Positions 2,198-23,733 of a DNA stretch of 55,272 bases are shown here, one piece after another; position 1 is the stretch's first letter, and each line of letters opens with the position of its first letter. The position numbers were made by a program, and so were the translations under genes. The stretch lies in contig CALXAR010000005.1 of assembly GCA_944386345.1 (NCBI GenBank), forward strand, positions 1-55,272, given 5' to 3'. Source of the stretch: an uncultured Clostridia bacterium. Lineage in GTDB: Bacteria; Bacillota; Clostridia; TANB77; CAG-465. The notes beneath the pieces were generated by a model, which did no database searches, was not told the origin of the DNA, and saw only the letters and a program-made list of their open reading frames with translations.

Positions 2198-2941
2198 TTA
2201 TTTAATTAAGACAATATCTTCATATAACATTATAAATTGCTCGTTTAATTGATATGTATTATGATAATGTCCAAAATACCATTTCTTAAATTTAGTTTTC
2301 TCATAAATTCCTTGCAAATAATCTGTAAAATAATTTTTATCATATTTACTACTAATCAAAGCTTGTACTCTTGTAGGGGCACAATGTGAAATAATATAAT
2401 CTACATTATATTCTACATTCTTTAATTTTTCTATTCCCCTTTGCATTTCTTCTTTTGTAGGAAGCTCCAAATCCCACCACGAAAAATCTCTTATTCTAAA
2501 CTCTGCTCCCCTTTTTCTGTATTCATTTATCTTATCAGTTTCATCTAAGTTTAATACTCCATCTTTTATATCGTGTGAACTTGCTCCACCAAATGTAAAA
2601 AACTTTTTATCATCTATATTAAAAATTTCTCCACGCATTAAGTGAAATACAGAATCTCGTACTTTATGAACTTTACCACCATGCCACTCTTCTACAGGAT
2701 ACTTATATAATCTTGTAAAATTTTCATGATTTCCGTCTACAAATAAAGTTGTAAAATTCTTTTCGTTTAACCAATCTAGCCAATATTTTTCTGTTTTACT
2801 TTCCAAAATATAATCCCATACTCCACCAAAATCTCCACAAATAATAATATAATCATCTTTTGTCATCTCTTTTTGTATAGGAAATCTTTTTGTTGAAAAT
2901 CTTGTAAAGTCTGAATGACAATCTCCTGTAATATAAATCAT
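2198..2941 (-). CDS. Calcineurin-like metallophosphoesterase
   Basis: 247 residues. The motifs that bind the two metals are in order: GDCH near residue 6, GDFGG near 37, GNHE near 70, HCAP near 190 and GHYH near 225. No signal peptide or membrane segment is seen, so it should be cytoplasmic. The family hydrolyses phosphomonoesters or diesters; the substrate is not evident. GGGGT (2946-2950 on the minus strand) gives a good ribosome site. It is unrelated in detail to the second phosphoesterase at 6696-7493. Confidence 0.85.
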   Translation of the reverse strand: MIYITGDCHSDFTRFSTKRFPIQKEMTKDDYIIICGDFGGVWDYILESKTEKYWLDWLNEKNFTTLFVDGNHENFTRLYKYPVEEWHGGKVHKVRDSVFHLMRGEIFNIDDKKFFTFGGASSHDIKDGVLNLDETDKINEYRKRGAEFRIRDFSWWDLELPTKEEMQRGIEKLKNVEYNVDYIISHCAPTRVQALISSKYDKNYFTDYLQGIYEKTKFKKWYFGHYHNTYQLNEQFIMLYEDIVLIK

Positions 2942-3015
2942 TTTATTACCCCTTATTATATAATAAATTAATAAAAATATTATACTATAAACTTAAGTAT
3001 AAATAAAGCTCACAC

Positions 3016-3047
3016 ATAAAAAGTGTGTCGTAATATATACGACACAC
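3016..3047 (-). terminator. Intrinsic terminator after the GH13 gene
   Basis: Minus-strand hairpin with perfect ten-base arms (GTGTGTCGTA at 3038-3047 pairing with 3023-3032) followed by TTTTT, directly after the stop of the glycosidase gene at 3056. Confidence 0.88.
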
Positions 3048-3055
3048 TAGTAGGC

Positions 3056-4912
3056 TCATTTCAAAATTATGGAACTATTTGGAACAAGTTTTTTAACCTT
3101 TTGTGGACCAGAAGTATAAAGTATCTCTTGAGAATCAGCAAAGCTTAAATCAAATGGCTTATCAGAAAGATTTACTCCGACAAGTAGCTTTTCATCACTT
3201 TCTAAAGACTCTCTTGCAAAAGTACATAGTCCTCCATGAAAAATTATTGGAACAAATCTTGCATCTTTAAGAAACTTACTATCATTTCTTATTTGACCAA
3301 GTTGTCTAAAGAAATTAATAAGCTCTATATCCTCTCTTCCCCATGGATATGTTTTTCTGTTATGTGGATCTTTATATCCATAAACTCCTGCTTCGTCACC
3401 ATAGTATAGACATGGATTTCCAGGCAAGAAATACTGAAGCACAGCCATCTTTTTAAGAAGATCTTTGCCTCTTTCATATGTTTGTGGATCCATATAATCA
3501 TGGTCTGCTTGCCAGAATCTGTCAGTACCATTTGCAGGTCCTTTTGCAAGTCTTGTTATAGCTCTTTCAATATCATGACCAGATATCATGTTCATCATTG
3601 CATCAAGATTATCTTTAGGATAGTTTTCTATTGTTCGTAAGATTGCATCAAGAAGACCTTCTGCATCTTTATGCTCAAAATACCAAAATAGTGCATCTTT
3701 ATATACATAATTCATTGCACTATCAAGTGTATTCTCAGTAAAATAATGCTTCCTTTCTCCATACGCCTCTTTAGTAGAAACATCTTCCCATACTTCACCA
3801 ATAATAGAAGCTTGAGAGCCATACGCCTGTTCTTGTTTAACAGCTCTAGATATCCTATATAACACATGATTCATAATTTCATCTACAACATCTAGTCTAA
3901 ATCCAGACGCTCCAAGTCCAATCCATTTTTTTACCACATTACAGCAATGCTCCACTACCATTTCCTCATTTTGATTAAGTTTTGGTAATGTTTTGTGTCC
4001 CCACCATGACTCATATCCTTCTGGATAATTAAAAAAGCAGTACCAATTATAATATGGACTATCTGGACTTGTATATGCCCCTATTGTTGCATAACGTCCC
4101 TCTTTATTAAAATAGATACTATCCGAACCAGTATGATTAAATACACCATCTAGTATTATTCGTATCCCTCTTTTTTTAGCTTCTTCACAGAGTTCCTTAA
4201 AGTCCTCTTCTTTTCCAAGTAAAGGATCGATTTTTAAATAATCGGCTGTGTTATAGCGGTGATTAGAATGTGCTTCAAAAATTGGATTTAAATAAATAAT
4301 TGTAGTACCTAAAGATTTAATATAATCTAGTTTTTGAGTTATACCCTTTAAATCTCCACCAAAATAATCATTATTTAAAATGATTCCATTTTCATCAGGC
4401 AAATAATCTGGATTTTCATACCAATCTCCATGAATTTTTCTATCCTCTGGTACATTCTCTTTTGGAGTGCCAGAATTATAGAATCTATCTGGAAATATCT
4501 GATAGAATGTTGCTCCTTTCATAAAATCTGGAACTGAGATATCCTTTGTAAAAGCAGTAAGTTGGAAGCATTCATTTTCTTTGCCACCAAAGCACGACTT
4601 TGAAAATCTATCCTTACGTATCTCTACATGTTTTCCGTTAATATCTAGAGTAAAATAGTAATAATATACATCTGCACAATCTGGTACAAAAGAGCAAGAA
4701 TAATAGTTGTTATTAAGAGAAGCTTCTGAAAGCTTCAAATCAATCTCCTTTCTTTCATCCCATTTGTCTATTTTAAATATAACGAGTTTTGGATTCTCTA
4801 TTATACTAAACTTATCCATCCGTATACTAAATTTTACTTCGGTTCCTTCTTTTGCTGGGCCTATTGGATCCTTACATTTTGGATCCAAGCTACAAAAAAT
4901 TTCGTTAATCAT
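3056..4912 (-). CDS. GH13 alpha-glycosidase (neopullulanase / cyclomaltodextrinase type)
   Basis: 618 residues. An N-terminal beta domain of about 125 residues of the CBM34 kind precedes the catalytic barrel, as in the GH13_20 subfamily. The conserved regions are present: DGVFNH (255-260), GFRLDV with nucleophile D341, GEVWED with acid/base E373 and SGHD with transition-state Asp D447. There is no signal peptide, so it probably works in the cytoplasm on imported maltodextrins or cyclodextrins, cutting alpha-1,4 and perhaps alpha-1,6 bonds. GGAGGG precedes the ATG. It stands alone, without transporter or regulator genes beside it. Neopullulanase, cyclomaltodextrinase and maltogenic amylase cannot be told apart here. 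Confidence 0.9.
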   Translation of the reverse strand: MINEIFCSLDPKCKDPIGPAKEGTEVKFSIRMDKFSIIENPKLVIFKIDKWDERKEIDLKLSEASLNNNYYSCSFVPDCADVYYYYFTLDINGKHVEIRKDRFSKSCFGGKENECFQLTAFTKDISVPDFMKGATFYQIFPDRFYNSGTPKENVPEDRKIHGDWYENPDYLPDENGIILNNDYFGGDLKGITQKLDYIKSLGTTIIYLNPIFEAHSNHRYNTADYLKIDPLLGKEEDFKELCEEAKKRGIRIILDGVFNHTGSDSIYFNKEGRYATIGAYTSPDSPYYNWYCFFNYPEGYESWWGHKTLPKLNQNEEMVVEHCCNVVKKWIGLGASGFRLDVVDEIMNHVLYRISRAVKQEQAYGSQASIIGEVWEDVSTKEAYGERKHYFTENTLDSAMNYVYKDALFWYFEHKDAEGLLDAILRTIENYPKDNLDAMMNMISGHDIERAITRLAKGPANGTDRFWQADHDYMDPQTYERGKDLLKKMAVLQYFLPGNPCLYYGDEAGVYGYKDPHNRKTYPWGREDIELINFFRQLGQIRNDSKFLKDARFVPIIFHGGLCTFARESLESDEKLLVGVNLSDKPFDLSFADSQEILYTSGPQKVKKLVPNSSIILK

Positions 4913-12216: not shown

Positions 12217-12243
12217 AAAGTGAGCTTTAAGCTCACTTTTTTC
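12216..12243. terminator. Bidirectional terminator, 12.2 kb
   Basis: AAAAGTGAGC and GCTCACTTTT arms around TTTAA; an A-run on one side and a T-run on the other serve both converging genes. Confidence 0.9.
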
Positions 12244-14134
12244 ATTCTAAAGAAGAACTTAGCTCTTGCCATAAGTCCATCTTTTCTTCTATTTCTTTTT
12301 CCAATTCGTCGACTTGACTTTGAAGCTCCGCAAGTTTTACATAGCTTGTACATATTTCCTCACTAGACATCTCTTCATGAAGTCTTTCCACTTTTGCTTC
12401 TCTTTCTTCTATTTCTTTTTCAAGTCTTTTTATTTTTCCTTGTACCCTATTTCTCTCTTTATTTTCTAAATATTGATTATTAGTTTTTTTCTCCTTAATA
12501 TTTACATTTTTCTCATCATCTTTTTCATTGTCTTTTCTAATCTGCATATACTCTTGATAAGTTCCATCAAAAAATTTTACTTCATCATTTTCAAAAATTA
12601 AAAGTGAATCTGCAATCTTATTAATAAAATACCTATCATGTGATACAACAATTAAAGTACCTGTATATGCTTTAAGTAAATTTTCTAGAGTCTCTTTTCC
12701 AACTATATCCATATGATTAGTAGGCTCATCTAAGAGCAAAAGATTTGGACCCTTCTTTAGTATTTTACATAGTTGCAATCTTACCTTTTCTCCTCCAGAT
12801 AAGAGTTTTATCTGTCTATCAATATCCTCTGAGAAAAATAGGAATGAAGCAAGGGAGGCTCTTGTTTGAGTAATCGTTAGATTTGGAAAGTCTCCTTCAA
12901 ACTCTTCAAGTACCGTTTTATTATCATCCTCAAATCCCATCTGTTGATCAAAGTACTCTTTATCTACATGATAACCATACTCAAAATCACCGCTAATACT
13001 ATTTGTATATCCCATAAGAGTCTTTAAAAGTGTTGATTTTCCTTTTCCATTTGCACCTATAATTCCAAGCTTTTGTCCTCTATATAGCTCAAAACTTATT
13101 TTTGCTATTGGTTTATCATATCCTATTTGTAGATCACTTACCTTAAGTACTAATTTTCCACTTTCTTCTTTTAGTTTAAAATTAGCAGAAAAGGACTTTA
13201 AATCATATTTGTTTGGTTCTTCGACTATTTTCATTTGCTCTATCTTTTTAAGCTTAGATAATGCCATTTTAGCCTTAGTAGGTTTATATCTAAATCTATC
13301 TGCTATAGCCTGTAGCCTTTTTATCTCTTTTTGCTGATATTCGTAGTCTTTTAACTGCTTTTCATAATTTACTCTTTTTTGCATTTCAAAAGCTGTAAAA
13401 TTTCCTGTGTACTCTGTAATAGCCCCATATTCTATTTCATACACTTTATTTACAATCTTATCTAAAAACATTCTATCGTGAGACACAATAACTATAGCCT
13501 TAGGATATGACTCAAGATAACTCTCTAGCCACTCTATAGTCTCTATATCAAGATGATTAGTAGGCTCGTCTAAAAGCAGTATATCAGGTTTGCTTAATAT
13601 TAATTTAATTAATGCAATTTTTGTCTTCTGCCCACCTGAGAACTCACCAATAGTTTTCTTCATATCTTCTTTGGTAAATCCAAATTTATATATTGCTGTT
13701 TCATACTCTTTTTTATATGTATATCCATCAAGTAATTTATATCTTTCTAGAGCATTAGTATATTCCTTTATGTTTTTATCATTGGAGTCTACTTGTAGTT
13801 TTTTCTCTAAAATACTTATCTTTTCTTCTAAAGCTATTATTTCAGAGTATACTTTTCTAATCTCATCAACCATTAAAATATTTGAATCTTCAAATTGTAT
13901 TTGCTTTAAATATCCAATTACTGTTGAGCCTTGCTTGTATACTCCAAATTTAGTTTCGCCTACGCCTTGCTCTAACATACTATTATCTATAATTGCTTTT
14001 AAAAGAGTAGTCTTTCCACATCCATTTCGCCCTACAATTGCTATTTTATCTTTTTCTTTAATCTCAAAATTTATCTCTTCTAAAATTGTATCAGCCCCAT
14101 ATGATACTGAGCCATTTACTATCTTATAATTCAT
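12242..14134 (-). CDS. ABC-F family ATPase with C-terminal coiled coil (Uup/YdiF-like)
   Basis: 630 residues with two ATP-binding domains and no membrane segment. First Walker A GRNGCGKTT near 35, signature FSGGQKTK, LLLDEPTNHLD; second Walker A GANGKGKST near 357, signature LSGGEKVR, LLLDEPTNHMD. The charged linker between domains (about 245-310) has the YKPTKAKMALSK element that meets the ribosome in this family. The C-terminal 90 residues form a Glu/Lys-rich coiled coil as in Uup and YdiF. ABC-F proteins work on ribosomes, relieving stalling or antibiotic binding. It is separate from the ABC-F gene inside the operon below. Confidence 0.9.
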   Translation of the reverse strand: MNYKIVNGSVSYGADTILEEINFEIKEKDKIAIVGRNGCGKTTLLKAIIDNSMLEQGVGETKFGVYKQGSTVIGYLKQIQFEDSNILMVDEIRKVYSEIIALEEKISILEKKLQVDSNDKNIKEYTNALERYKLLDGYTYKKEYETAIYKFGFTKEDMKKTIGEFSGGQKTKIALIKLILSKPDILLLDEPTNHLDIETIEWLESYLESYPKAIVIVSHDRMFLDKIVNKVYEIEYGAITEYTGNFTAFEMQKRVNYEKQLKDYEYQQKEIKRLQAIADRFRYKPTKAKMALSKLKKIEQMKIVEEPNKYDLKSFSANFKLKEESGKLVLKVSDLQIGYDKPIAKISFELYRGQKLGIIGANGKGKSTLLKTLMGYTNSISGDFEYGYHVDKEYFDQQMGFEDDNKTVLEEFEGDFPNLTITQTRASLASFLFFSEDIDRQIKLLSGGEKVRLQLCKILKKGPNLLLLDEPTNHMDIVGKETLENLLKAYTGTLIVVSHDRYFINKIADSLLIFENDEVKFFDGTYQEYMQIRKDNEKDDEKNVNIKEKKTNNQYLENKERNRVQGKIKRLEKEIEEREAKVERLHEEMSSEEICTSYVKLAELQSQVDELEKEIEEKMDLWQELSSSLE

Positions 14135-14198
14135 AAAATCTCCTACTTTTTAGTGTAAACTATTATACCATAATATATATTAAATATCTATATATACA

Positions 14199-14230
14199 AA
14201 AAAATAGAACCCTATTATAATAGGATTCTA
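14199..14230 (-). terminator. Intrinsic terminator at the end of the seven-gene operon
   Basis: Minus-strand hairpin, 13-base arms around TAATAGG with one wobble, followed by TTTTTTT; it begins 4 bases after the decarboxylase stop. Confidence 0.88.
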
Positions 14231-14233
14231 AAA

Positions 14234-15445
14234 TTAATCAATTATTATCTCAAGTGGCAGTGGGTGACTTAAAAACCACAAAGTTGATGCAGTGTAGCAA
14301 TAAGCACCTGACTGAGTCAATACAACAATATCTCCAATACTTGCTCTTTTAACTGGCTCATCCCATGATATCTTATCTTCGGTCATACATAATGGACCTT
14401 CAATATCTACTGTCTCATTTGAGACTTCAATCTGCTTATCATAAAGTCTAGGAATTCCCATTCTTATAACGTACACAGGATGTTTTCTGTCAGTAGCAAT
14501 TGGTAGTCTCATATGGTTTACTCCACCTGCAGTAACTATATGCTTCATTCCTTTGCAATCTTTAATGTCTATAATTTGTGTAGCATAATACCCTGCACTA
14601 CCAACAATATATTTGCCAAGTTCAAGTATAAATTCTTTATCTTCAAAAGAATATGTTTTTATAAGTCTATCTAAGCCTTCAAAATATGCCTTTGTATCAA
14701 ATGTTCTATTAGACTTTGTATAATCTATTCCAAAGCCTCCCCCAAAGTCTATAACTTTTACTTTGCCAACTGTTTTTTCTGCCTCTTTAACAAACTTAAA
14801 TACAAAATCAGTATACTTTAGCAAAATTTTATAATCTAATACCCCATCTGCAGCAAAAACATGAAATCCACATACTCTAATATGTTTAAGCTTAGAAATC
14901 AATTCATAATCCTCATAAAACCTAGACTGATCAATTCCCATTTTAGTTGACATACCAGCCATATACTCAGATGCACCATCTAAGAAATAATTTATATTTA
15001 CTCTTAAAAGCACGTCCACTTTATCTATGCCTTCTATCTCAGCTATCTCATTAATACGTATAGCTTCAACAACCGATTCAACATTTATAAATCGTATGCC
15101 ACTACGTATAACTTCACGAAGCTCAACAGGAGTTTTTCCAGGACCTGTAAAAAGTACATCATAATCATTTTTTAGTCCTGAGTCTCTAGCAATATTAAGC
15201 TCTCCAACAGATGCAATCTCTACTCCAGAAATTGCTCTATGTGACAAAATATGCTTTAACACATCCTTATTTGGATTTGCTTTCATCGCATAATACAACG
15301 ATACATTTGCAAGTTTAAAATGTTCTATTTCTTCAATCCGATTAGTAATTTCCTCTAAATCGTATATATAACATGTAGGATTTTTCATTACTTCAGAATT
15401 TGAAGAGAAAATAGATTTTATATATTCTTCTACTTTTTTATTCAT
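14234..15445 (-). CDS. Fold-III PLP-dependent decarboxylase (DAP/ornithine decarboxylase superfamily)
   Basis: 403 residues. PLP lysine K55 lies in YYAMKANPN, H195 stacks on the cofactor, GGGFG (235-239) binds phosphate, and the second-subunit Cys (GPLC, C353) and Tyr (Y382 in SGAYCY) are kept. The usual EPGR loop reads ELGK (275-278), an unusual change near cofactor and substrate. Relatives decarboxylate diaminopimelate, carboxynorspermidine, ornithine or carrier-bound glutamate; the loop change suggests a different substrate. It is the last gene of the operon, 89 bases after the ABC-F gene, with GGAGG before the ATG and a terminator after the stop. Confidence 0.8.
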   Translation of the reverse strand: MNKKVEEYIKSIFSSNSEVMKNPTCYIYDLEEITNRIEEIEHFKLANVSLYYAMKANPNKDVLKHILSHRAISGVEIASVGELNIARDSGLKNDYDVLFTGPGKTPVELREVIRSGIRFINVESVVEAIRINEIAEIEGIDKVDVLLRVNINYFLDGASEYMAGMSTKMGIDQSRFYEDYELISKLKHIRVCGFHVFAADGVLDYKILLKYTDFVFKFVKEAEKTVGKVKVIDFGGGFGIDYTKSNRTFDTKAYFEGLDRLIKTYSFEDKEFILELGKYIVGSAGYYATQIIDIKDCKGMKHIVTAGGVNHMRLPIATDRKHPVYVIRMGIPRLYDKQIEVSNETVDIEGPLCMTEDKISWDEPVKRASIGDIVVLTQSGAYCYTASTLWFLSHPLPLEIIID

Positions 15446-15478
15446 TTTAGTATTCCTCCAATCGTAATAATAAAAGTA

Positions 15479-15512
15479 GGGAGTAGCATAGTTGTAGCAA
15501 TTATGCTACCCC
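15479..15512 (-). other. Strong hairpin in the gap between ABC-F and decarboxylase genes
   Basis: GTAGCATA pairs with TATGCTAC, extended by GGG/CCC past one bulged base. The minus-strand T-tract is weak (CTACTTTTATT), so it may be a partial terminator, an mRNA end-stabiliser or a processing site that sets decarboxylase level. Confidence 0.5.
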
Positions 15513-15534
15513 ACTCATGTAAAATCGTCATGTA

Positions 15535-17211
15535 TTATCTTTTTAGTACCTTTCTTGGACCCTTTTGTTCGGGTCCTTGCGTGGGAGTGTTATCTGAATG
15601 CTCTAGATAAAAATCATAATTACCTAAATAATCAGTAAACTCACCATCTTCTAGCTCAACTACTCTATTTGCCACTTTATTAATAAAGTATCTATCGTGA
15701 GACACAAATAGCAAAGTACCTTCAAAATTACTTAAAGCATCTTCTAATATCTCACGATTTCTTACATCTAAATGATTAGTAGGCTCATCTAATATAAGAA
15801 AATTGACATCATTTTGAACAAGCTCTGCAAACTTAAGTCTTACTTTTTCACCACCTGATAGTGAAGAAATACGTTTTTGAACTTCTTCACCATAGAAATG
15901 AAAAGCTGCCAAAGTTGAATAAGTCTGAGTTAATGTTCCATTAAAATGCTTTTTAAACTCATCAATAATAGTCTCATCTTCATTTTCAAAAGAAACATTT
16001 TGTGGCAAGTAGCCAATTTTGACATTACTTCCAAGTTTAACTTGCCCATCAATTTGACTTAGTTGACCTAAAATAAGTTTTAGTACTGTTGACTTTCCAG
16101 AGCCATTTTTTCCAATCAAGCATACTTTATCTTTATACTCAAGAGATAAATTAGCTCCACAAAGTATAATATCATCGCCATCTGGATATGCAAACGTTAC
16201 ATCTTCTAATGACAATACATCATTACCAGATCTTGTCTCTTGATTGAAGTTTAAAGCAATATCCTTTTGTGTTTTCGGTCTATCAACTTTATCCATCTCA
16301 TCAATACGTCTTTCAAGTTGCTTAGCAACTCTGTATGCTTTCTCTGAACTTTGCGCTCCCCAAGCTCTATTTTTTCGTATTGCCTCTTCCATTCCTGCTA
16401 TTTTTTTCTGCTGAGTAACATATGCTTGTTCTTGAGCTTCTCTTTCAGCTTTTAAAGCTTCAACATATTGAGTATAATTTCCAAAGTATGTCTTAATTTT
16501 ACCATCTGCTATTGCAAACACTTTATTTATTGTTCTATCAAGAAAATATCTATCATGTGATACTAGTATCACTGATCCATTATATCCTTTGATAAAATCT
16601 TCAAGCCATCCAAGAGTTGGTATATCCAAATGATTAGTAGGCTCATCTAAAAGTAGGATATCAGGCTTTTGAAGTAGCATGCGAGCAAGACACACAATAG
16701 TCTTTTGTCCTCCACTAAGAGAGTTATACTCTTGATCTAATAACTCTGTAATCTTAAGATTTCCAGCCATTTTATCAATATTAGATTCAATCTCATATCC
16801 CCCTTTATTCATAAAGAGTTCTTGAGCTTTTCCATAAGAATTCATAGCTTTTTCAAGTTCATCAGGAGTTGTATTTGGATCCCCCATTATAAGTTCTAGT
16901 TTATGCATTTTTTCTTGAAGTCCAGCGATATCACCATAAGCTGTTCTTAAAAAATCCCGAACATTTATATCTTCTTGAACTTCAGGAGCAATCTGTGTTA
17001 AGAATCCAATTGTGGCATCTTTTCTTTTTGAAACAGTACCACTAGTTGGTTTTTCATTCCCATAAATGAGATTGAAAATACTTGTTTTTCCAGTTCCATT
17101 GTCTCCAACAATAGCAACCTTGTCACCACTGTTAACCTGGAATGTTGCACCATCTAAGATGTTTTTAAATCCATAATTTAAACTAACATTGCTAAGTTCT
17201 ACATCTAGCAT
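15535..17211 (-). CDS. ABC-F family ATPase inside the biosynthetic operon
   Basis: 558 residues, two ATP-binding domains: Walker A GDNGTGKTS near 36 with signature LSGGQKT and DEPTNHLD, then GKNGSGKST near 368 with LSGGEKVR and DEPTNHLD. The linker (about 240-305) carries the RVAKQLERRIDEMD helix. There are no membrane segments. ABC-F proteins bind the ribosomal E site; many in producers protect against an antibiotic. Its place between the ureohydrolase and decarboxylase genes suggests self-protection or a regulatory link, but a general translation role is equally possible. GGAGGT precedes the ATG; the upstream gap is 42 bases. Confidence 0.88.
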   Translation of the reverse strand: MLDVELSNVSLNYGFKNILDGATFQVNSGDKVAIVGDNGTGKTSIFNLIYGNEKPTSGTVSKRKDATIGFLTQIAPEVQEDINVRDFLRTAYGDIAGLQEKMHKLELIMGDPNTTPDELEKAMNSYGKAQELFMNKGGYEIESNIDKMAGNLKITELLDQEYNSLSGGQKTIVCLARMLLQKPDILLLDEPTNHLDIPTLGWLEDFIKGYNGSVILVSHDRYFLDRTINKVFAIADGKIKTYFGNYTQYVEALKAEREAQEQAYVTQQKKIAGMEEAIRKNRAWGAQSSEKAYRVAKQLERRIDEMDKVDRPKTQKDIALNFNQETRSGNDVLSLEDVTFAYPDGDDIILCGANLSLEYKDKVCLIGKNGSGKSTVLKLILGQLSQIDGQVKLGSNVKIGYLPQNVSFENEDETIIDEFKKHFNGTLTQTYSTLAAFHFYGEEVQKRISSLSGGEKVRLKFAELVQNDVNFLILDEPTNHLDVRNREILEDALSNFEGTLLFVSHDRYFINKVANRVVELEDGEFTDYLGNYDFYLEHSDNTPTQGPEQKGPRKVLKR

Positions 17212-17253
17212 AGTTTTTATACCTCCATTCTATAAGTTAATAAGTAGTGTTAT

Positions 17254-18123
17254 TTATTTAGTCATGTAACTCATCATTTCCATGATTAAATTAACAATTG
17301 TTATTCCCGTAAGCGAAGCCCCTGCACATGTAGGATTATATTCTACAAAATCAACTCCAATTATTCTCTTTGAAGAATTTATGATGGCTTTTAAATAAGA
17401 ACATGCTTCCTCATATGAAGGGCCTCCTGGCTCAGGGCAGTTTGTCGCTGGCGCAATAGCAGGATTTAAGAAATCAGTATCAAATGTTATATATACATTT
17501 TTATCTTTTAAATAATCTATTAGATTATCTATTTTTTCACCAATTTCATTATATGGAATAACTATATTTCCTTTTTCCTTGCTATCACTTATAGCAGGAT
17601 ATGAGTTAAGATTTCCTCTGATTCCAAAATGAATAATTTTTAAAACTCCTTCAAGTTTACTAGTCTCATTCATAACAGAGCCATGAGGATAATCATAAAA
17701 CTCATCAATAAAATCGCTATGTGCATCAAACTGAACTACTACAACATCTTTGTAATTTGTAGTCATTTTCTTTACAAGACTATATGTAACACTATGGTCT
17801 CCTCCAACAAAAATTGGAATACAATTAGTGTTTAGGTCAAGTCTTAGAAGCTTTTTATCAAGCTCTTTAAAATTATCGGCACTTATATTTCCCAAGTCAT
17901 AAGCTTTTGTATCTTTTAAAATATATCCTTCTTCAGGACTATATACTTTAAGAGGAAGGCTACTTCCATCTGCATTTGCATATCTAAAAGATAACTCTCG
18001 TATCCTATCTGCAGCCTTTTGTACGCCAAAAAGATATTTTGCACTGCAAAACTCAATACCTATAAAGCAAAATCCTTTTTCACCCTTAGACTTGGCATCT
18101 AATCCGAGGAATCTACTTGTCAT
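17254..18123 (-). CDS. Ureohydrolase (arginase/agmatinase superfamily)
   Basis: 289 residues. All six Mn ligands are readable: H110 (GGDHS), D133, H135 and D137 (FDAHSDF), D215 and D217 (TFDTDFLNP). H147 (PHGS) and the Glu of GVDFVEYNP, which holds the guanidinium in arginases, are also kept, so hydrolysis of a guanidino (or amidino) group to urea plus amine is likely. The third signature departs from the usual GTGTP, reading APATNCPEPGG. The substrate is unknown; agmatine, a guanidino acid or a pathway-specific intermediate are options. The ATG at 18123 overlaps the aminotransferase stop by 11 bases and has GGAGG nine bases upstream. Confidence 0.82.
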   Translation of the reverse strand: MTSRFLGLDAKSKGEKGFCFIGIEFCSAKYLFGVQKAADRIRELSFRYANADGSSLPLKVYSPEEGYILKDTKAYDLGNISADNFKELDKKLLRLDLNTNCIPIFVGGDHSVTYSLVKKMTTNYKDVVVVQFDAHSDFIDEFYDYPHGSVMNETSKLEGVLKIIHFGIRGNLNSYPAISDSKEKGNIVIPYNEIGEKIDNLIDYLKDKNVYITFDTDFLNPAIAPATNCPEPGGPSYEEACSYLKAIINSSKRIIGVDFVEYNPTCAGASLTGITIVNLIMEMMSYMTK

Positions 18124-19384
18124 TTGGACATTCCTCCTTAAACAATTCAACAATCCTTTTTAAGCCATCCATAAACTGATCATATCCTCTTGATATAGTA
18201 ACCCTAAAGCTAATATCTTCAAGTGGTAAACCAAAAACATTACCAGGTGTTACTAAAATATTCTCCTTTTCTAGAATATATACAAAGAGCTCATGTGATG
18301 TATAAACACCCTTTTTGCGACACACATCAGATTTAAAAGTAATATACATTATATTTCCAGCATCTGGATAAACAACGTTTTCTACTACATCTGTTTGAGA
18401 CATAAGATAATCATATGCATCATTAAACAGAGTAAAAATCTGATTATGATATTCTTCTTTCTCTTTAATATACTCTAAGGTCTCTGGTGACTTATCTCCA
18501 CTATCTACATTTACTCTTTGAGTCATCTCTACAATTCCAAGTGCCTCAAGGAATGTAGAATTAGAATAATTAACAGCTTCTCCAAGCTCAAGTAGCCAAT
18601 TTATAATTTTAGAATCTTTACATATAGTCCATCCGCATCTAAGATCGCTAAGCTGAGGAATATCTTTACTAAATCCTTTAATTTTAATTAGCTTCTTATA
18701 GTCATTTGCTAGCTTAAAAATCTGAACTCTTTTATTTTTAAATAGTGGAGCTTCTTCAAATATAGCATCATATATAATATATATGTCTTTTTCTATACAA
18801 AAGTTAACTATCTTTTCAAGCTCGTCTTCATCAATAAATTTACAAGCTGGATTTGCAGGATTTGTAATTAAAAGTGCTACAGTCTTATCTGTATATCCTT
18901 TAACAACATCTTCATAGCGCATCTTGTAATCGTTGCTTTTATCCATAGAAATAACATTAGTTTTAATACCATAAAAAGTTAGACTTTTCTTAAGTCCGGC
19001 ATATGCGGGCACTGGATAAATTATCTCGATATCATCTGCAAATTTATATTCTCGTGCAATAACTTGTGCAACAAAATTAAGTGCTCCTGTTGTTCCATTA
19101 CCTCCAACAATAACTTCATCTTTGGTAATAGTCTCACCTTCAATAACACTCTCATGAGAAGCAATAAGCTCTCTTAGCTTTGTCTTTCCCCCAGGATACG
19201 AATATCCCCAATCCATATCTTCATCTGGATCTTCAAGAGTTCTGTATATTTCCCGTCTAATACATGAAAAGAGAGGAAATGTAAACCAATCAAGATTGGA
19301 TGCATCCATAAGAAGTGCACCTTTTTCAAGTCCAATGTCAAAGTATTGAGACATTGTAAGTTTTTCTTTATGATTATTATTCAT
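18113..19384 (-). CDS. Class I/II PLP-dependent aminotransferase
   Basis: 424 residues. Fold-I landmarks: GGNGTTGALN near 94-103 (PLP phosphate), Tyr in VPAYAG near 128, NPANPA near 175-180, YDAIFEEA with D206, and the PLP lysine K240 in KGFSKDI followed by RCGW. It should exchange an amino group between an amino acid and a keto acid. Substrate is unknown. The start at 19384 overlaps the previous stop by 8 bases (ATGAATAA) with GGAGG inside the upstream gene, showing tight translational coupling. A start at 19399 would lie upstream of that site. Confidence 0.85.
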   Translation of the reverse strand: MNNNHKEKLTMSQYFDIGLEKGALLMDASNLDWFTFPLFSCIRREIYRTLEDPDEDMDWGYSYPGGKTKLRELIASHESVIEGETITKDEVIVGGNGTTGALNFVAQVIAREYKFADDIEIIYPVPAYAGLKKSLTFYGIKTNVISMDKSNDYKMRYEDVVKGYTDKTVALLITNPANPACKFIDEDELEKIVNFCIEKDIYIIYDAIFEEAPLFKNKRVQIFKLANDYKKLIKIKGFSKDIPQLSDLRCGWTICKDSKIINWLLELGEAVNYSNSTFLEALGIVEMTQRVNVDSGDKSPETLEYIKEKEEYHNQIFTLFNDAYDYLMSQTDVVENVVYPDAGNIMYITFKSDVCRKKGVYTSHELFVYILEKENILVTPGNVFGLPLEDISFRVTISRGYDQFMDGLKRIVELFKEECPNDK

Positions 19385-20468
19385 AAATTTTACCTCCATT
19401 TCTATTCTTACAGGTTAATACAACAACTATTTTTTCTTTACTCGTTTTTTTATATTCATCTAAAGCAGCCATAGCAGAAATTGATGTATAGTCATATTTA
19501 GCTTTAAATTCAGGATGTTCTAATATAAATTTATCTATCTGTTTATCACTAACAGAGATAAAAAAAGCTTCATCACGACTAGCCATATCATAAATCTTCT
19601 TGTAATTAAAACATGTATCATTAGAAAGTATTGTCTTAGAATCAATAGGGTCGATTATATTTAACCAACCATCTATTTTCTTTTCAAAGCCCTGTTTAAT
19701 AGGATTTCCTCCAATTATTTCAACAACTCCAATTTTAGGAATTTTAGAGATAACTCCTGCATTAAACATTTCTCTAAATGCCAAATTCTGAGCAACAATA
19801 TCCATTCCACTTCCACATGGTATAATAACCACATCTGGTACAGACTTCATATCTCTAATTATTTCATATGACATAGACCTAAGTCCAAGCATATAAGAGA
19901 TATTTGTATTTAAGAAGCCCCAAAAAACATCTTTGTGTTTTAGAGAATACTTCATAAAATCTTTGTAACTCGTAACAAAATCTTTGCTGTAAAAAACTTT
20001 ATCTGCATTTTCTATTTGAGCAAGACTACTCTTAGAAATCCCTTTATGAACAAAAACAATAGATTTAATCCCATACTCTCTTGCATAGAAAATAGCAGAT
20101 ATTGCACCACTTCCACATGATACAATAGAAATTGATTTTTTCTTATGAGTGATAACTTCATTCATAAGATTTTCCATACCTCTATCTTTAAAACTTCCTG
20201 TTGGATTAACTGACTCATCCTTTAGGAAAATATTATCATCATATTTAATAAGTGGTGTATTACCAGCCTTAAATTTAGTTTCTTTCCTAACTTTAGGAAA
20301 GATTATTTTTCCATCATTTGAAAATTTAATCTCAAATTCTGGTAAATAATCTTTTATATCCCAAAAATTAGGTGGAACTAAATCTAGTTCTAACTCAGGA
20401 TGTCTATGACAAATTTGTTCAAAAGGATAATCCATTTCTTTTTTACATATACTGCAAACAATTTTCAT
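19377..20468 (-). CDS. Threonine-synthase-like fold-II PLP enzyme
   Basis: 363 residues. The N-terminal CSIC...CHRH looks like the small zinc knuckle found in many threonine synthases. KDESVNPTGSFKDRG holds the PLP lysine K94; SCGSGAIS near 126 and IPCGSGMD near 216 bind the phosphate. Members of this group do beta- or gamma-replacement or elimination on amino acids, not only threonine synthesis. Its place in a dedicated operon, with no homoserine genes, argues for a specialised reaction. The ATG lies 3 bases after the radical SAM gene, whose last codons (GGAGGC) provide the ribosome site. Confidence 0.78.
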   Translation of the reverse strand: MKIVCSICKKEMDYPFEQICHRHPELELDLVPPNFWDIKDYLPEFEIKFSNDGKIIFPKVRKETKFKAGNTPLIKYDDNIFLKDESVNPTGSFKDRGMENLMNEVITHKKKSISIVSCGSGAISAIFYAREYGIKSIVFVHKGISKSSLAQIENADKVFYSKDFVTSYKDFMKYSLKHKDVFWGFLNTNISYMLGLRSMSYEIIRDMKSVPDVVIIPCGSGMDIVAQNLAFREMFNAGVISKIPKIGVVEIIGGNPIKQGFEKKIDGWLNIIDPIDSKTILSNDTCFNYKKIYDMASRDEAFFISVSDKQIDKFILEHPEFKAKYDYTSISAMAALDEYKKTSKEKIVVVLTCKNRNGGKIYE

Positions 20469-20471
20469 GGA

Positions 20472-21695
20472 TTATTCGCCTCCTAAAACATCATCAATTC
20501 TTGTATAAATACTACGAGAATCTTTGACTTTTTTAGTATCTTGCCACAATTTATAGCAATGTTTACATGGCTTTACAACGTCTAAATCTTTAACATCATA
20601 TGTCATGTTAAATTGTTTAATAGCCTCAACAAATTCATTAGTACAATAACTACAATTACTAGATGTCATATGTGGAAATATCTCATTTCTTTGTGCAAAT
20701 CCTGTTCCTTGACTTCCGCTTAATACTTCCTCATCAAAATATCCTCCAAGCCTTATATCTAGTTTAGAAACATGCATTCTATCGTAAATACCATGAATTA
20801 TATCTCTTAAGCTCCAAAGCCATGGAACTCTATATAATCCAAGATTATATAAATAATTTGCAAGTGAGTTTTCCTGTAAAGATGTTGGCTCAACTGACAC
20901 TGCATCAAAATTAAAATCTTTAAAGCAATCAACTGATGTTTTTATAGCATCTTCTATTGCCTCTGACTCGGTAAGAAAAATCGGTTTAAAATTAACATAT
21001 GCAAGTGCCTTCATATTATATTTATGAAGAAGAGCTACTGCATCAGATATTATTTGTGTATTTTCAATCGCTTTATGGTGACATAGTTCTCTTATTAAAA
21101 AGTTTGTAGATTCAACGCCGATACCTACCTCAACAACCCCATCATATACTTTGCGAATTGCGCTAAGTATATCTTCTGTTACATATTCAGCCCTAGATTC
21201 TATTATAACTTTCTTTACACCCTTATACTTATTTAAAGTACTAAAGATATATTGAACAGTTTTAACAGATATCTCTTCTGGATTTAAAAGACTACCTAAG
21301 TTATATACACAAACTACAGGATAATCATTAAGATTAAATTCTTTATCTGTTTTCTCAACAAAACTCCCATCAAGAACAGAATTCCACTGCTCGACATAAT
21401 TTTTATGTGTTATTTTCTCTTTAAGTGGTGCTCCATTTAAATGTGCACACATTGAACATCCACCATTAGTTTTGTAATGCTGGCATCCATTAGATCTTAA
21501 AACAATCATAACTCTGTCGACAGTTTTTCCTTCATAAAAGAATTTATTGATCTCCACTTCAGCAAGTTTGGTCTTTTCATAAGGTAAATTAGGTGTGTTT
21601 GAACGAATCTCCTTTATCTTTTCTTCTACTAAGCTAGAAGCTCTTTTAAAGACTTTCCGTTCAATCACTCTTTTAGTTTCGAATAAATAGCTCAT
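20472..21695 (-). CDS. Radical SAM enzyme of the RaSEA (archaeosine-type, TIGR01210) group
   Basis: 407 residues. The cluster motif is C71-x8-C80-x2-C83 in LRSNGCQHYKTNGGCSMC, the spacing of RaSEA rather than the usual CxxxCxxC. Further RaSEA signatures are FKPIFLTESEAIEDA, SVEPTSLQENSL and YRVPWLWS. Two C-terminal CxxC pairs (CSYC, CKHC) may bind another metal site. Archaeal RaSEA cleaves a lysine adduct to create the amidine of archaeosine in tRNA. A copy in a bacterial amino-acid-type operon without tRNA-modification genes suggests a related C-N bond cleavage on another substrate. It starts 5 bases after the adenylating gene, with AGGAGG inside that gene's last codons. Confidence 0.75.
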   Translation of the reverse strand: MSYLFETKRVIERKVFKRASSLVEEKIKEIRSNTPNLPYEKTKLAEVEINKFFYEGKTVDRVMIVLRSNGCQHYKTNGGCSMCAHLNGAPLKEKITHKNYVEQWNSVLDGSFVEKTDKEFNLNDYPVVCVYNLGSLLNPEEISVKTVQYIFSTLNKYKGVKKVIIESRAEYVTEDILSAIRKVYDGVVEVGIGVESTNFLIRELCHHKAIENTQIISDAVALLHKYNMKALAYVNFKPIFLTESEAIEDAIKTSVDCFKDFNFDAVSVEPTSLQENSLANYLYNLGLYRVPWLWSLRDIIHGIYDRMHVSKLDIRLGGYFDEEVLSGSQGTGFAQRNEIFPHMTSSNCSYCTNEFVEAIKQFNMTYDVKDLDVVKPCKHCYKLWQDTKKVKDSRSIYTRIDDVLGGE

Positions 21696-21700
21696 ATATC

Positions 21701-23062
21701 CTACCTCCTAACAAAGCTAATAACAGGTCTATACTTTACCCCTTTATCATAGAGTAAGTTATCCACTTTGTGAACACTTACCTCCATACTACGTGGTATC
21801 AAAGAATAGATACTTTCTTTGATAGCATCAAAGTCTAAAGAATACTCTCCTTCAATAATATAAAGGTCAAGTCTCTTTACGTCCGGTTGAACAAACTGGT
21901 ACTTAAGTCCGTGTACTGGAATTTCATATACCAAAAACCAGTTATATGCCAAATCCATAAAACATGAAGCTGGTATATACTCTCCTTCTGGTGTAATAAT
22001 AGAATCCATATTACGTCCTTTTACCCCCTCAATAATTCTTCCTTTGTCGCCACACTCACACTCTTGTGAAATAGTAATTTTTGCTAAATCTCCTTGAATG
22101 TAACGAATAATTGGAGTTGCAGTATTTAAAAGGTTAGTACCTACTACAATTCCAGTTTCACCATCTGGTAATTTGTTTCCTTTATCGTCAATAATCTCAA
22201 TAAAGCAAGCATCTTCCTCCAAATGGTAATGATGCATAGGACATTCCAATGCAATTCTTGTTAACTCTTCGCTGCTATACTCATCTAAAACTTGCACATC
22301 AAGTGCTTCTGCTAACATCTTACGTTGCATAACATTTGATTGCTCTGAATGAACAATTACAAGTTCTACTCCATAATCTGAAAGTTTAATTCCTGTTGAT
22401 GCAATCTTTTCAAGGTAAGTCGGATATGTTGAAATATATCTTGGTCGTGTTTTTCTAATATGATTTACTGCATCCTCAACTTTTGTTGTTGTTGGTAAAA
22501 AGTCCTGCTTGTATTCACCATTTATATTATCTACCCACCAAGGGCAAGTATAAATATATAAAATAGTGTCTTCAGGTCTATATTTACCTCCTGACTGCAT
22601 ATTAAATTGTCTAACTGTTTGCAAAGTATCTTTGTATATTGCCTCTTCAGATACTGCAATTGTAACAAACTTTCCACTAGAACCAGAACTACGGGTTGAA
22701 AGTACAAAATCATTAACATCTTTTACAATCGCATCTGGAAAACCTTCAATTAGTTCTTCTTTATGAAGATATGGTAACTTAAAGAAATCATCCCATGTCT
22801 TAATACTTCCCTTTTTATATCCCACTTCAGAATATTTCTTTCTGTATAAAGGAATATTTTCAAAAGCATAATCCACAATATAGCTTATTCTTTTAAGTTG
22901 CCAGTCTTGAATTTTTTCCAATGGTTGATTTAAAAAAGAGTTAAGCTTTTTTCCAGACTTTTTTAAAATTCTTGAAAGAATCTCATCATGAACTGGCAAA
23001 GTCATGTACTTTTCGCCCTTTTTTCTTAGAGCAACATATTCAGACTTAGAAATTTTACTCAT
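21701..23062 (-). CDS. Adenylate-forming enzyme, PaaK/CapK-like (phenylacetate-CoA ligase family)
   Basis: 453 residues. The P-loop STRSSGSSGK (122-131), DEYSSEE, the IIRYIQGDL segment and a C-terminal Lys in GVKYRPVISF match the PaaK/CapK branch of the ANL superfamily. It would activate a carboxylate as acyl-AMP and pass it to CoA, a carrier or an amine; no carrier protein is encoded nearby. A CECG zinc-like element (residues 326-329) is typical of the branch. It is the first gene of the operon, behind a very strong AAAGGAGGAGG site and a consensus promoter. The acyl substrate cannot be deduced. Confidence 0.8.
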   Translation of the reverse strand: MSKISKSEYVALRKKGEKYMTLPVHDEILSRILKKSGKKLNSFLNQPLEKIQDWQLKRISYIVDYAFENIPLYRKKYSEVGYKKGSIKTWDDFFKLPYLHKEELIEGFPDAIVKDVNDFVLSTRSSGSSGKFVTIAVSEEAIYKDTLQTVRQFNMQSGGKYRPEDTILYIYTCPWWVDNINGEYKQDFLPTTTKVEDAVNHIRKTRPRYISTYPTYLEKIASTGIKLSDYGVELVIVHSEQSNVMQRKMLAEALDVQVLDEYSSEELTRIALECPMHHYHLEEDACFIEIIDDKGNKLPDGETGIVVGTNLLNTATPIIRYIQGDLAKITISQECECGDKGRIIEGVKGRNMDSIITPEGEYIPASCFMDLAYNWFLVYEIPVHGLKYQFVQPDVKRLDLYIIEGEYSLDFDAIKESIYSLIPRSMEVSVHKVDNLLYDKGVKYRPVISFVRR

Positions 23063-23193
23063 AAAAAAACCTCCTCCTTTAAAAGTCCATCTACTAATAT
23101 TGTTTGACTATCTGTATCTGCAATGTAATTACATATGCACTAACCTCTGCCAAAATCATTATAAAGCAGATATTTGATTTGATAATCGCTATT

Positions 23194-23222
23194 ATTATAT
23201 TATCATATTGGCGTAAAGTCAA
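23194..23222 (-). promoter_or_regulatory. Consensus promoter of the seven-gene operon
   Basis: Minus strand TTGACT (23217-23222), exactly 17 bases, TATAAT (23194-23199). One mismatch to the sigma-A consensus. It leaves an untranslated leader of about 125 bases before the first gene, in which I see no known riboswitch. Confidence 0.85.
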
Positions 23223-23241
23223 GCAATTATGCGATTTTTTA

Positions 23242-23256
23242 TGCAAATCGTTTGCA
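23242..23256. repeat. Palindrome upstream of the operon promoter (candidate operator)
   Basis: TGCAAA-TCG-TTTGCA, a perfect six-base dyad whose edge is 19 bases upstream of the -35 box. The position would suit an activator. It may also be chance in AT-rich DNA. Confidence 0.4.
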
Positions 23257-23293
23257 AAAAAATAAAACCTAAATCAAATTTTAGGTTTTATTT
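23255..23293 (-). terminator. Intrinsic terminator after the VOC gene
   Basis: Minus-strand arms AAATAAAACCTAAA and TTTAGGTTTTATTT (23260-23293), then TTTTTTT. It separates the VOC gene from the operon promoter just downstream. Confidence 0.85.
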
Positions 23294-23307: not shown

Positions 23308-23733
23308 TTATTCTTCTATTTTCCTATTTTCTAGGTCTTGACTAAATCTTAATAAAAATCCGTTAGGATCTTGCACTAAAAATTCTCTGCATCCCATTAG
23401 AACATTATCTTTTCTGTACCAATGGTCTTCCATATCAACAAATATTTTATATTTTTCTTTTTTTAATCTTGAATAAATCTCATCTATATTTGTAACATCT
23501 ATTTGGAAGTTTATTCCTACTCCTAAAGGATATTTAAGCTCTCCTGTTCCCCACTTATTATTTTCTTTATCAATTTCTTGTATCATAAGCTGTACATTTT
23601 CAAATTGTAAAAAAGCAAACCTGTCTTCTTTTCTATCATATTCTATATGAAAACCAATTAAATCAACATAAAAGTGAATGCTTTCCTCTAGATTAAAAAC
23701 ATCAAATTCTGGTATCATCTGATTCCATTCCAT
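23308..23733 (-). CDS. VOC-family (glyoxalase / bleomycin-resistance-type) protein
   Basis: 141 residues forming two beta-alpha-beta-beta-beta halves: N-terminal PEFDVFNLEESIHFYVDLIGF and C-terminal REFLVQDPNGFLLRFSQ. The overall order fits bleomycin-binding or fosfomycin-type VOC proteins; the second-half Glu/His metal ligands are not clear, so antibiotic binding without catalysis is possible. GGAGG precedes the ATG. It has its own terminator and is upstream of the seven-gene operon on the same strand, with no shared promoter. Confidence 0.75.
   Translation of the reverse strand: MEWNQMIPEFDVFNLEESIHFYVDLIGFHIEYDRKEDRFAFLQFENVQLMIQEIDKENNKWGTGELKYPLGVGINFQIDVTNIDEIYSRLKKEKYKIFVDMEDHWYRKDNVLMGCREFLVQDPNGFLLRFSQDLENRKIEE

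Follow-up and report, generated by a model that had tools for sequence, protein, structure and literature searches.

A conserved seven-gene accessory module with a structured leader RNA in an uncultured Clostridia bacterium, and its putative role in specialised metabolism

The locus described here, a run of seven genes (g1 to g7) in a 55,272-nucleotide stretch of DNA from an uncultured Clostridia bacterium (contig CALXAR010000005.1 of assembly GCA_944386345.1; the whole stretch is referred to as the window), has partial counterparts among described systems. In archaeosine formation ArcS and RaSEA act as a pair: an amino acid is attached, and RaSEA converts the ArcS-made lysine adduct to archaeosine (PMC11298593). 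SbnH, BtrK and MccE form a clade of enzymes decarboxylating conjugated amino acids (PMC7857480). ABC-F proteins borne by biosynthetic gene clusters protect or read the ribosome, in self-resistance and sensor roles, and LmrC of the lincomycin-type clusters combines an arm with its resistance domain (PMC8546547). Further partial counterparts are the PaaK-like ligases of natural-product clusters (AjiA1, BagE/FevW) and GntC (guanitoxin) and VioD (viomycin), from pathways to arginine-derived amino acids. No published pathway with this seven-gene set was found in the literature searched, which mostly excludes subscription journals. A specialised-metabolite operon is a known kind of locus; what appears to be new is its set of enzymes, together with the g1-g2 core and the leader RNA. 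To our knowledge, few natural products of small-genome gut Clostridia have been characterised.

The seven genes were found to be co-directional on the minus strand at 14234-23062, as claimed in the original prediction from the window, and all seven open reading frames (ORFs) were present. They form a single module whose genes are conserved, selected and co-occurring, and which has a promoter, a structured leader and a terminator of its own. The features are as follows (SAM, S-adenosylmethionine; PLP, pyridoxal phosphate; aa, amino acids).

23194-23222, minus strand: sigma-A type promoter, TTGACT-17-TATAAT, 11/12; TTGA and the -10 element are kept upstream of g1 in 10 full loci
23092-23193, minus strand: structured 5' leader RNA, three-way junction plus alternative helix (covariance model, held-out test)
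21701-23062, minus strand: g1, PaaK/CapK-like adenylate-forming enzyme, 453 aa; TRSSGSSGK motif from T123, YSSEE, D325 and C-terminal Lys443 (K443) conserved
20472-21695, minus strand: g2, RaSEA-like radical SAM enzyme, 407 aa; CX8CX2C and C-terminal CxxC...CxxC
19377-20468, minus strand: g3, threonine-synthase-like fold-II PLP enzyme, 363 aa; N-terminal CxxC and HRH; the genome's only PALP protein
18113-19384, minus strand: g4, fold-I PLP enzyme (aminotransferase-like), 423 aa from the ATG at 19384
17254-18123, minus strand: g5, arginase/agmatinase-family ureohydrolase, 289 aa from the ATG at 18123; six of six metal-ligand positions kept
15535-17211, minus strand: g6, ABC-F ATPase (ribosomal protection-like), 558 aa; cluster-specific clade
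14234-15445, minus strand: g7, alanine-racemase-fold PLP decarboxylase, 403 aa; nearest solved relatives 6knh/6knk (SbnH) and BtrK
14205-14230, minus strand: intrinsic terminator, 3' of g7
14173-23287: extent of the module by presence and absence, against the empty site in genome G035 (L052, 7859-7895)

Gaps of 5 and 3 nucleotides separate g1 from g2 and g2 from g3, g4 overlaps g3 by 8 and g5 overlaps g4 by 11, and gaps of 42 and 89 precede g6 and g7. The tight joins predicted for the first five genes were confirmed together with their ribosome sites, GGAGGT ahead of g4 and AAGGAGG ahead of g5. The ORF list places the g4 and g5 starts further upstream; the starts at 19384 and 18123 were preferred, and used for the spacings, because the ribosome sites favour them. 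The near-perfect promoter and the terminator (14230-14205) that had been claimed were likewise recovered. Promoter-like sites overall occurred at chance number (64 found against 64.1 expected), so the evidence for the g1 promoter is its conservation across the 10 loci.

Nine loci besides the window, found by scanning 84,980 genomes and searching the order, have all seven genes in identical order and on one strand; they are 54-90% identical to the window, and their matched frames contain no internal stop codons. The full set was found in 10 genomes of 3 genera. Between the window and one of the loci (L012), dN/dS (the ratio of nonsynonymous to synonymous substitution rates) was 0.07-0.22 for all seven genes, which points to purifying selection on each of them. 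Orthologues scattered through relatives would have spoken against a unit. Instead, the genes were linked in every full copy, and in the order sample (191 genomes) g3 was present in 10, exactly the full-set carriers, and g2 in 11, of which the eleventh (G170) holds g1-g2 only. No g2 relative at E <= 1e-20 was detected in other genomes of the class sample (391 genomes) and the phylum sample (398 genomes), no g4 relative at E <= 1e-70 among 249 phylum genomes besides the window's own, and no g2 relatives in viral contigs. On plasmids, g2 relatives were found only at 27% identity, in Streptomyces, and the one inspected was without an annotated PaaK-like neighbour. On plasmid pFRL3 of Streptomyces sp. 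FR1 (L051), the gene of a RaSEA-like radical SAM protein (14851-15966, 27% to g2) starts a run with P450, serine hydroxymethyltransferase, carbamoyltransferase and rfaE2-like genes, which may be another use of the RaSEA-like family outside archaeosine. In L018 and L019 a second g4 paralogue (2676-3920 and 2671-3915, respectively; 55-56% to g4) lies, next to a VOC gene, upstream of the full cluster at a distance of a few kb.

Genome G035, with a recR 98% identical, was collinear with the window on both sides and had 37 bp in place of 14173-23287 (about 9.1 kb). The seven genes are a gained-and-lost, probably mobile, accessory module and not primary metabolism. They are co-localised, co-inherited and dispensable biosynthetic genes, as in a natural-product cluster. 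In a concatenated seven-protein tree, L014 (from another family) and L022 (from another genus, genome G056) fell among the same-genus members, and the same-genus L018/L019 formed the longest branch. recR identities order the species differently; in G130, the genome of L014, recR was 60% and 84% identical over two pieces, against 68-81% for g1-g7. The pattern implies a probable transfer between families. Directly after g7 in L022, an ORF (17605-18306) is truncated-transposase-like by eye and would fit movement of the module.

The empty site also bears on a role in primary metabolism, which had been named as a possible refutation. The genes could be stand-ins for threonine synthase, agmatinase and diaminopimelate (DAP) decarboxylase in an auxotrophic genome. 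In the window's own genome (G000; 1.29 Mb, 95.7% complete) g3 is the sole PALP-family protein and g7 the sole lysA-like decarboxylase, and for this reason the host appears to be without its own threonine, cysteine and lysine end steps. However, the thrC, lysA and agmatinase cut-offs are all missed by a wide margin, about 95% of the genomes sampled in the order do without the module, and a radical SAM enzyme and an adenylating enzyme have no place in such a role, which we consider very improbable. Still less probable is an anti-phage defence island. It would agree with the patchy distribution and the compact mobile operon, but PADLOC gave only generic ABC ATPase matches, to g6, and the enzyme set is biosynthetic. 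The sub-cut-off scores, the distribution in the order and the PADLOC result led to both readings being set aside.

Two observations add to the original prediction, a structured leader RNA and a reusable g1-g2 core. The leader, located between the g1 promoter and g1, folded as a three-way junction in most of the ten full loci (single-sequence folds), with P1 GATTATC/GATAGTC, P2 TCTGC/GCAGA and P3 around TGTAATTACA. An alternative helix, ATCTGC with a distal GCAGAT, is mutually exclusive with P2, well kept and preferred by RNAalifold. In a structure-free MAFFT alignment the junction pairing had 86% standard pairs, and 14 of the 21 pairs were changed on both sides; the junction score was reached by none of 500 shuffles, and slid controls gave 32-49% pairing. 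Since the single-sequence folds that first suggested the structure were of the same leaders, a held-out test is the cleaner evidence: with a covariance model built from five leaders, the five held-out leaders were the top five matches in 365 kb (E 2e-9 to 0.006), and a sequence-only model found two of the five. The leader had no Rfam match at gathering score and appears new, and no convincing copies away from the operon were seen in the examined flanks. Part of the leader, used as a DNA pattern against viral contigs, matched 99 stretches, which are probably chance. We infer a regulatory switch, a putative riboswitch or attenuator; no terminator was found between the leader and g1 in the terminator scan, and no anti-Shine-Dalgarno sequence was seen there by eye. 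A leader-peptide reading was rejected, as the MILA-starting ORF seen by eye in five of the ten leaders is missing in L015, L017, L018, L019 and L022, which keep the RNA structure.

The predicted set of enzyme families held at superfamily level in profile searches. Only the ABC-F protein g6 passed the curated cut-off of its nearest named family, and g1-g5 and g7 are not to be called by the nearest family's name because their scores are under cut-off. Catalytic residues (PLP and metal ligands, adenylation motifs) were invariant in g1, g3, g5 and g7, as was the cysteine triad of g2. Against PaaK, g1 scored 104.5 bits (cut-off 646.3). It resembles AjiA1 and BagE/FevW in its adenylation motifs, its C-terminal lysine and its place in a biosynthetic unit, but differs from them in being under all family cut-offs, with no Pfam match at all. 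The [4Fe-4S] triad of g2 is C71, C80 and C83. Its score against the RaSEA model TIGR01210 was 196.5 bits (cut-off 212.15), and its residues 55-383 align to positions 9-301, nearly the whole model. The best model neighbours of g2 in structure comparison were radical SAM enzymes, and its Foldseek neighbours include the tRNA-acting Elp3 and MiaB. An amino-acid-joining partner adjoins RaSEA, as g1 may do here. In contrast to the RaSEA/ArcS system, g2 is bacterial, under cut-off and equipped with extra C-terminal CxxC pairs, the partner is a PaaK-like adenylating enzyme, and no ArcS or ArcTGT gene was recognised among the window neighbours of g2.

The scores of the PLP enzymes and the ureohydrolase were similarly low. 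Against thrC, g3 scored 61.9 bits (cut-off 167.1). The best NCBIfam match of g4 was GntC, at 113 of 415 bits, and g5 comes from a guanidino-hydrolysing family, both in likeness to the GntC/VioD systems; the module differs from these in this low score, in having no hydroxylase and in the fold search, where GntC was only at rank 32. A GntC/VioD-like arginine cyclase is conceivable for g4, though the fold search shows no special likeness. Against the agmatinase equivalog, g5 scored 127.9 bits (cut-off 174.3), with invariant binuclear Mn ligands (H, DxHxD, DxD: H120, D143, H145, D147, D225, D227). Against the decarboxylase TIGR03099, g7 scored 245.9 bits (cut-off 478.45). Its profile scores for SbnH (6knh, 224.6 bits) and BtrK (173 bits) were both above those for DAP decarboxylases; 6knk is also SbnH (PMC7857480). 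The likeness to SbnH, BtrK and MccE ends at a Glu-Leu-Gly-Lys in g7 where these have ...Gly-Arg, and at a module without a siderophore (NIS) synthetase or carrier protein.

Adjacent g1-g2 genes, 53-65% identical, were observed in three other clusters: L020, in a Bacilli metagenome-assembled genome; L021, which is the same place as L050; and L042. Companions in L020 (5197-15381) are an ABC-F, an M20 peptidase-like protein, a GNAT acetyltransferase, two more radical SAM proteins, ATP-grasp, HAD and arginine-deiminase-like proteins, of which the M20 peptidase-like protein and the acetyltransferase are possibly a protect/deprotect pair. L042 (G958 contig C1, 1-14891; cut by the contig end) has nonribosomal peptide synthetase-like proteins (by eye), ATP-grasp, radical SAM proteins including a variant, a glutamate-2,3-aminomutase-like protein (526 of 650 bits), a methyltransferase, an ABC-F and an M20 peptidase. 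In L021 a further radical SAM protein and a GNAT-like protein precede the contig end, and no ABC-F was seen up to there. g1-g2 is a two-gene core, and its reuse beside differing tailoring genes is the best sign of one coupled reaction of the two enzymes. The window cluster and L020 each have a guanidino-hydrolysing family, the two folds being unrelated, and this is a hint that the material derives from arginine. A more distant g1/g2 pair (32-35%), with one gene between, is present in L043 (G1020 contig C34, 915-12914), where the g2 relative scored 232.9 bits against TIGR01210, above the 212.15 cut-off. This run also has histidine-decarboxylase-like, MetK-like, ornithine-racemase-like, B12 radical SAM, methyltransferase, B3/4-domain and TrpRS/TyrRS-family proteins, the last of which could be a self-resistance target or a plain housekeeping gene.

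The ABC-F protein g6 scored 466.5 bits against NF000355 (ABC-F ribosomal protection-like), above the cut-off of 380. Orthologues of at least 65% identity were found in each of the nine cluster genomes tested; in 16 cluster-free genomes there were none, the best match being 46%. Like LmrC, g6 is an ABC-F within a biosynthetic unit; unlike the lincomycin-type clusters, g1-g7 has no lincosamide enzymes, and the resistance role of g6 is putative. The idea of a biosynthetic unit was supported, but for g6 immunity or ribosome sensing seems more plausible than a biosynthetic step. Since g6 is probably arm-bearing and ABC-F genes are common, the ribosome as target is possible but somewhat less likely than not.

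On balance, g1-g7 is probably a horizontally mobile transcription unit making a small amino-acid-derived specialised metabolite, the likely candidate being an amine- or guanidine-type antibiotic. In the pathway that we propose, g3, by fold-II PLP beta/gamma replacement, and the fold-I PLP enzyme g4 would make or remodel an unusual amino acid. g1 would convert a carboxylate to its adenylate, which would then be joined to an amine, and g2, always beside g1, would perform radical chemistry on the conjugate; C-N cleavage as in archaeosine formation is a guess. Urea could be removed from a guanidino intermediate by g5, and g7 could act like SbnH, BtrK and MccE and decarboxylate the conjugate at its amino-acid end. 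During production g6 would act on the ribosome, protecting or reading it, and the leader RNA would tune expression of the whole unit as a riboswitch or attenuator. With its movement between families, its empty site for comparison and its reusable radical SAM core, the 9-kb module gives a directly testable starting point for finding a new small molecule. If the proposal is true, RaSEA-type chemistry is used outside tRNA and a new regulatory RNA class exists. A far-reaching version, an undescribed ribosome-directed anaerobic antibiotic family around the PaaK-like ligase and RaSEA-like radical SAM pair, is unlikely in its entirety; here amino-acid ligation and radical C-N cleavage would amount to a net amine transfer, like ArcS-RaSEA on tRNA, and a new riboswitch or attenuator class would sense the product or its ribosome effect.

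Several points weigh against an antibiotic of this kind. Every enzyme is under its family cut-off, so that the substrate is not assignable from family, and the likeness of g4 to GntC (113 of 415 bits) is weak and not fold-specific. The steps of the pathway are all proposed from sequence and context, from which we also infer the product, the substrate order, the ribosomal target and the assignment of individual enzymes. The module has no exporter. ABC-F genes are common in these genomes, with four in G000, and those found in L020 and L042 fall in a different clade, one that has chromosomal members too. In g6 the Walker A to signature distance is 129 residues, an EttA-like arm spacing unlike that of the Lsa/Vga resistance factors. 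The common chromosomal ABC-F genes, this arm spacing and the lack of both exporter and receptor agree with a non-antibiotic small molecule, such as an osmolyte, a signal, or a metallophore-like or polyamine-like amine, with g6 merely an expression-adjusting translation factor; the resemblance of g5 and g7 to polyamine and siderophore enzymes fits as well. Nevertheless, an ABC-F, although of a different clade, is also present in two of the three other g1-g2 clusters (L020 and L042), and a patchy gain/loss distribution is more typical of antagonism genes. We regard the non-antibiotic molecule as possible but doubtful.

A nucleic-acid or protein modification system, with g2 acting on a nucleoside and g1 in the role of ArcS, is improbable. 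The relation of g2 to RaSEA, the two-step action of the ArcS-RaSEA pair and the tRNA-acting structural neighbours of g2 would all suit it, but the module contains neither an ArcS nor a TGT nor a preQ0 gene, its enzymes g3, g4, g5 and g7 are of types that act on free amino acids, and it is dispensable in a near-identical genome.

A second ABC-F gene (12242-14134) and a VOC gene (23308-23733) were tried as cluster members and rejected, since the two are adjacent to each other in module-free genomes and are flanks. They are neighbours in G035 and, by protein matches, in G060, G080 and G078. The ABC-F of the flank is OptrA-like (706 of 1450 bits), and the VOC gene is VOC/bleomycin-binding-like.

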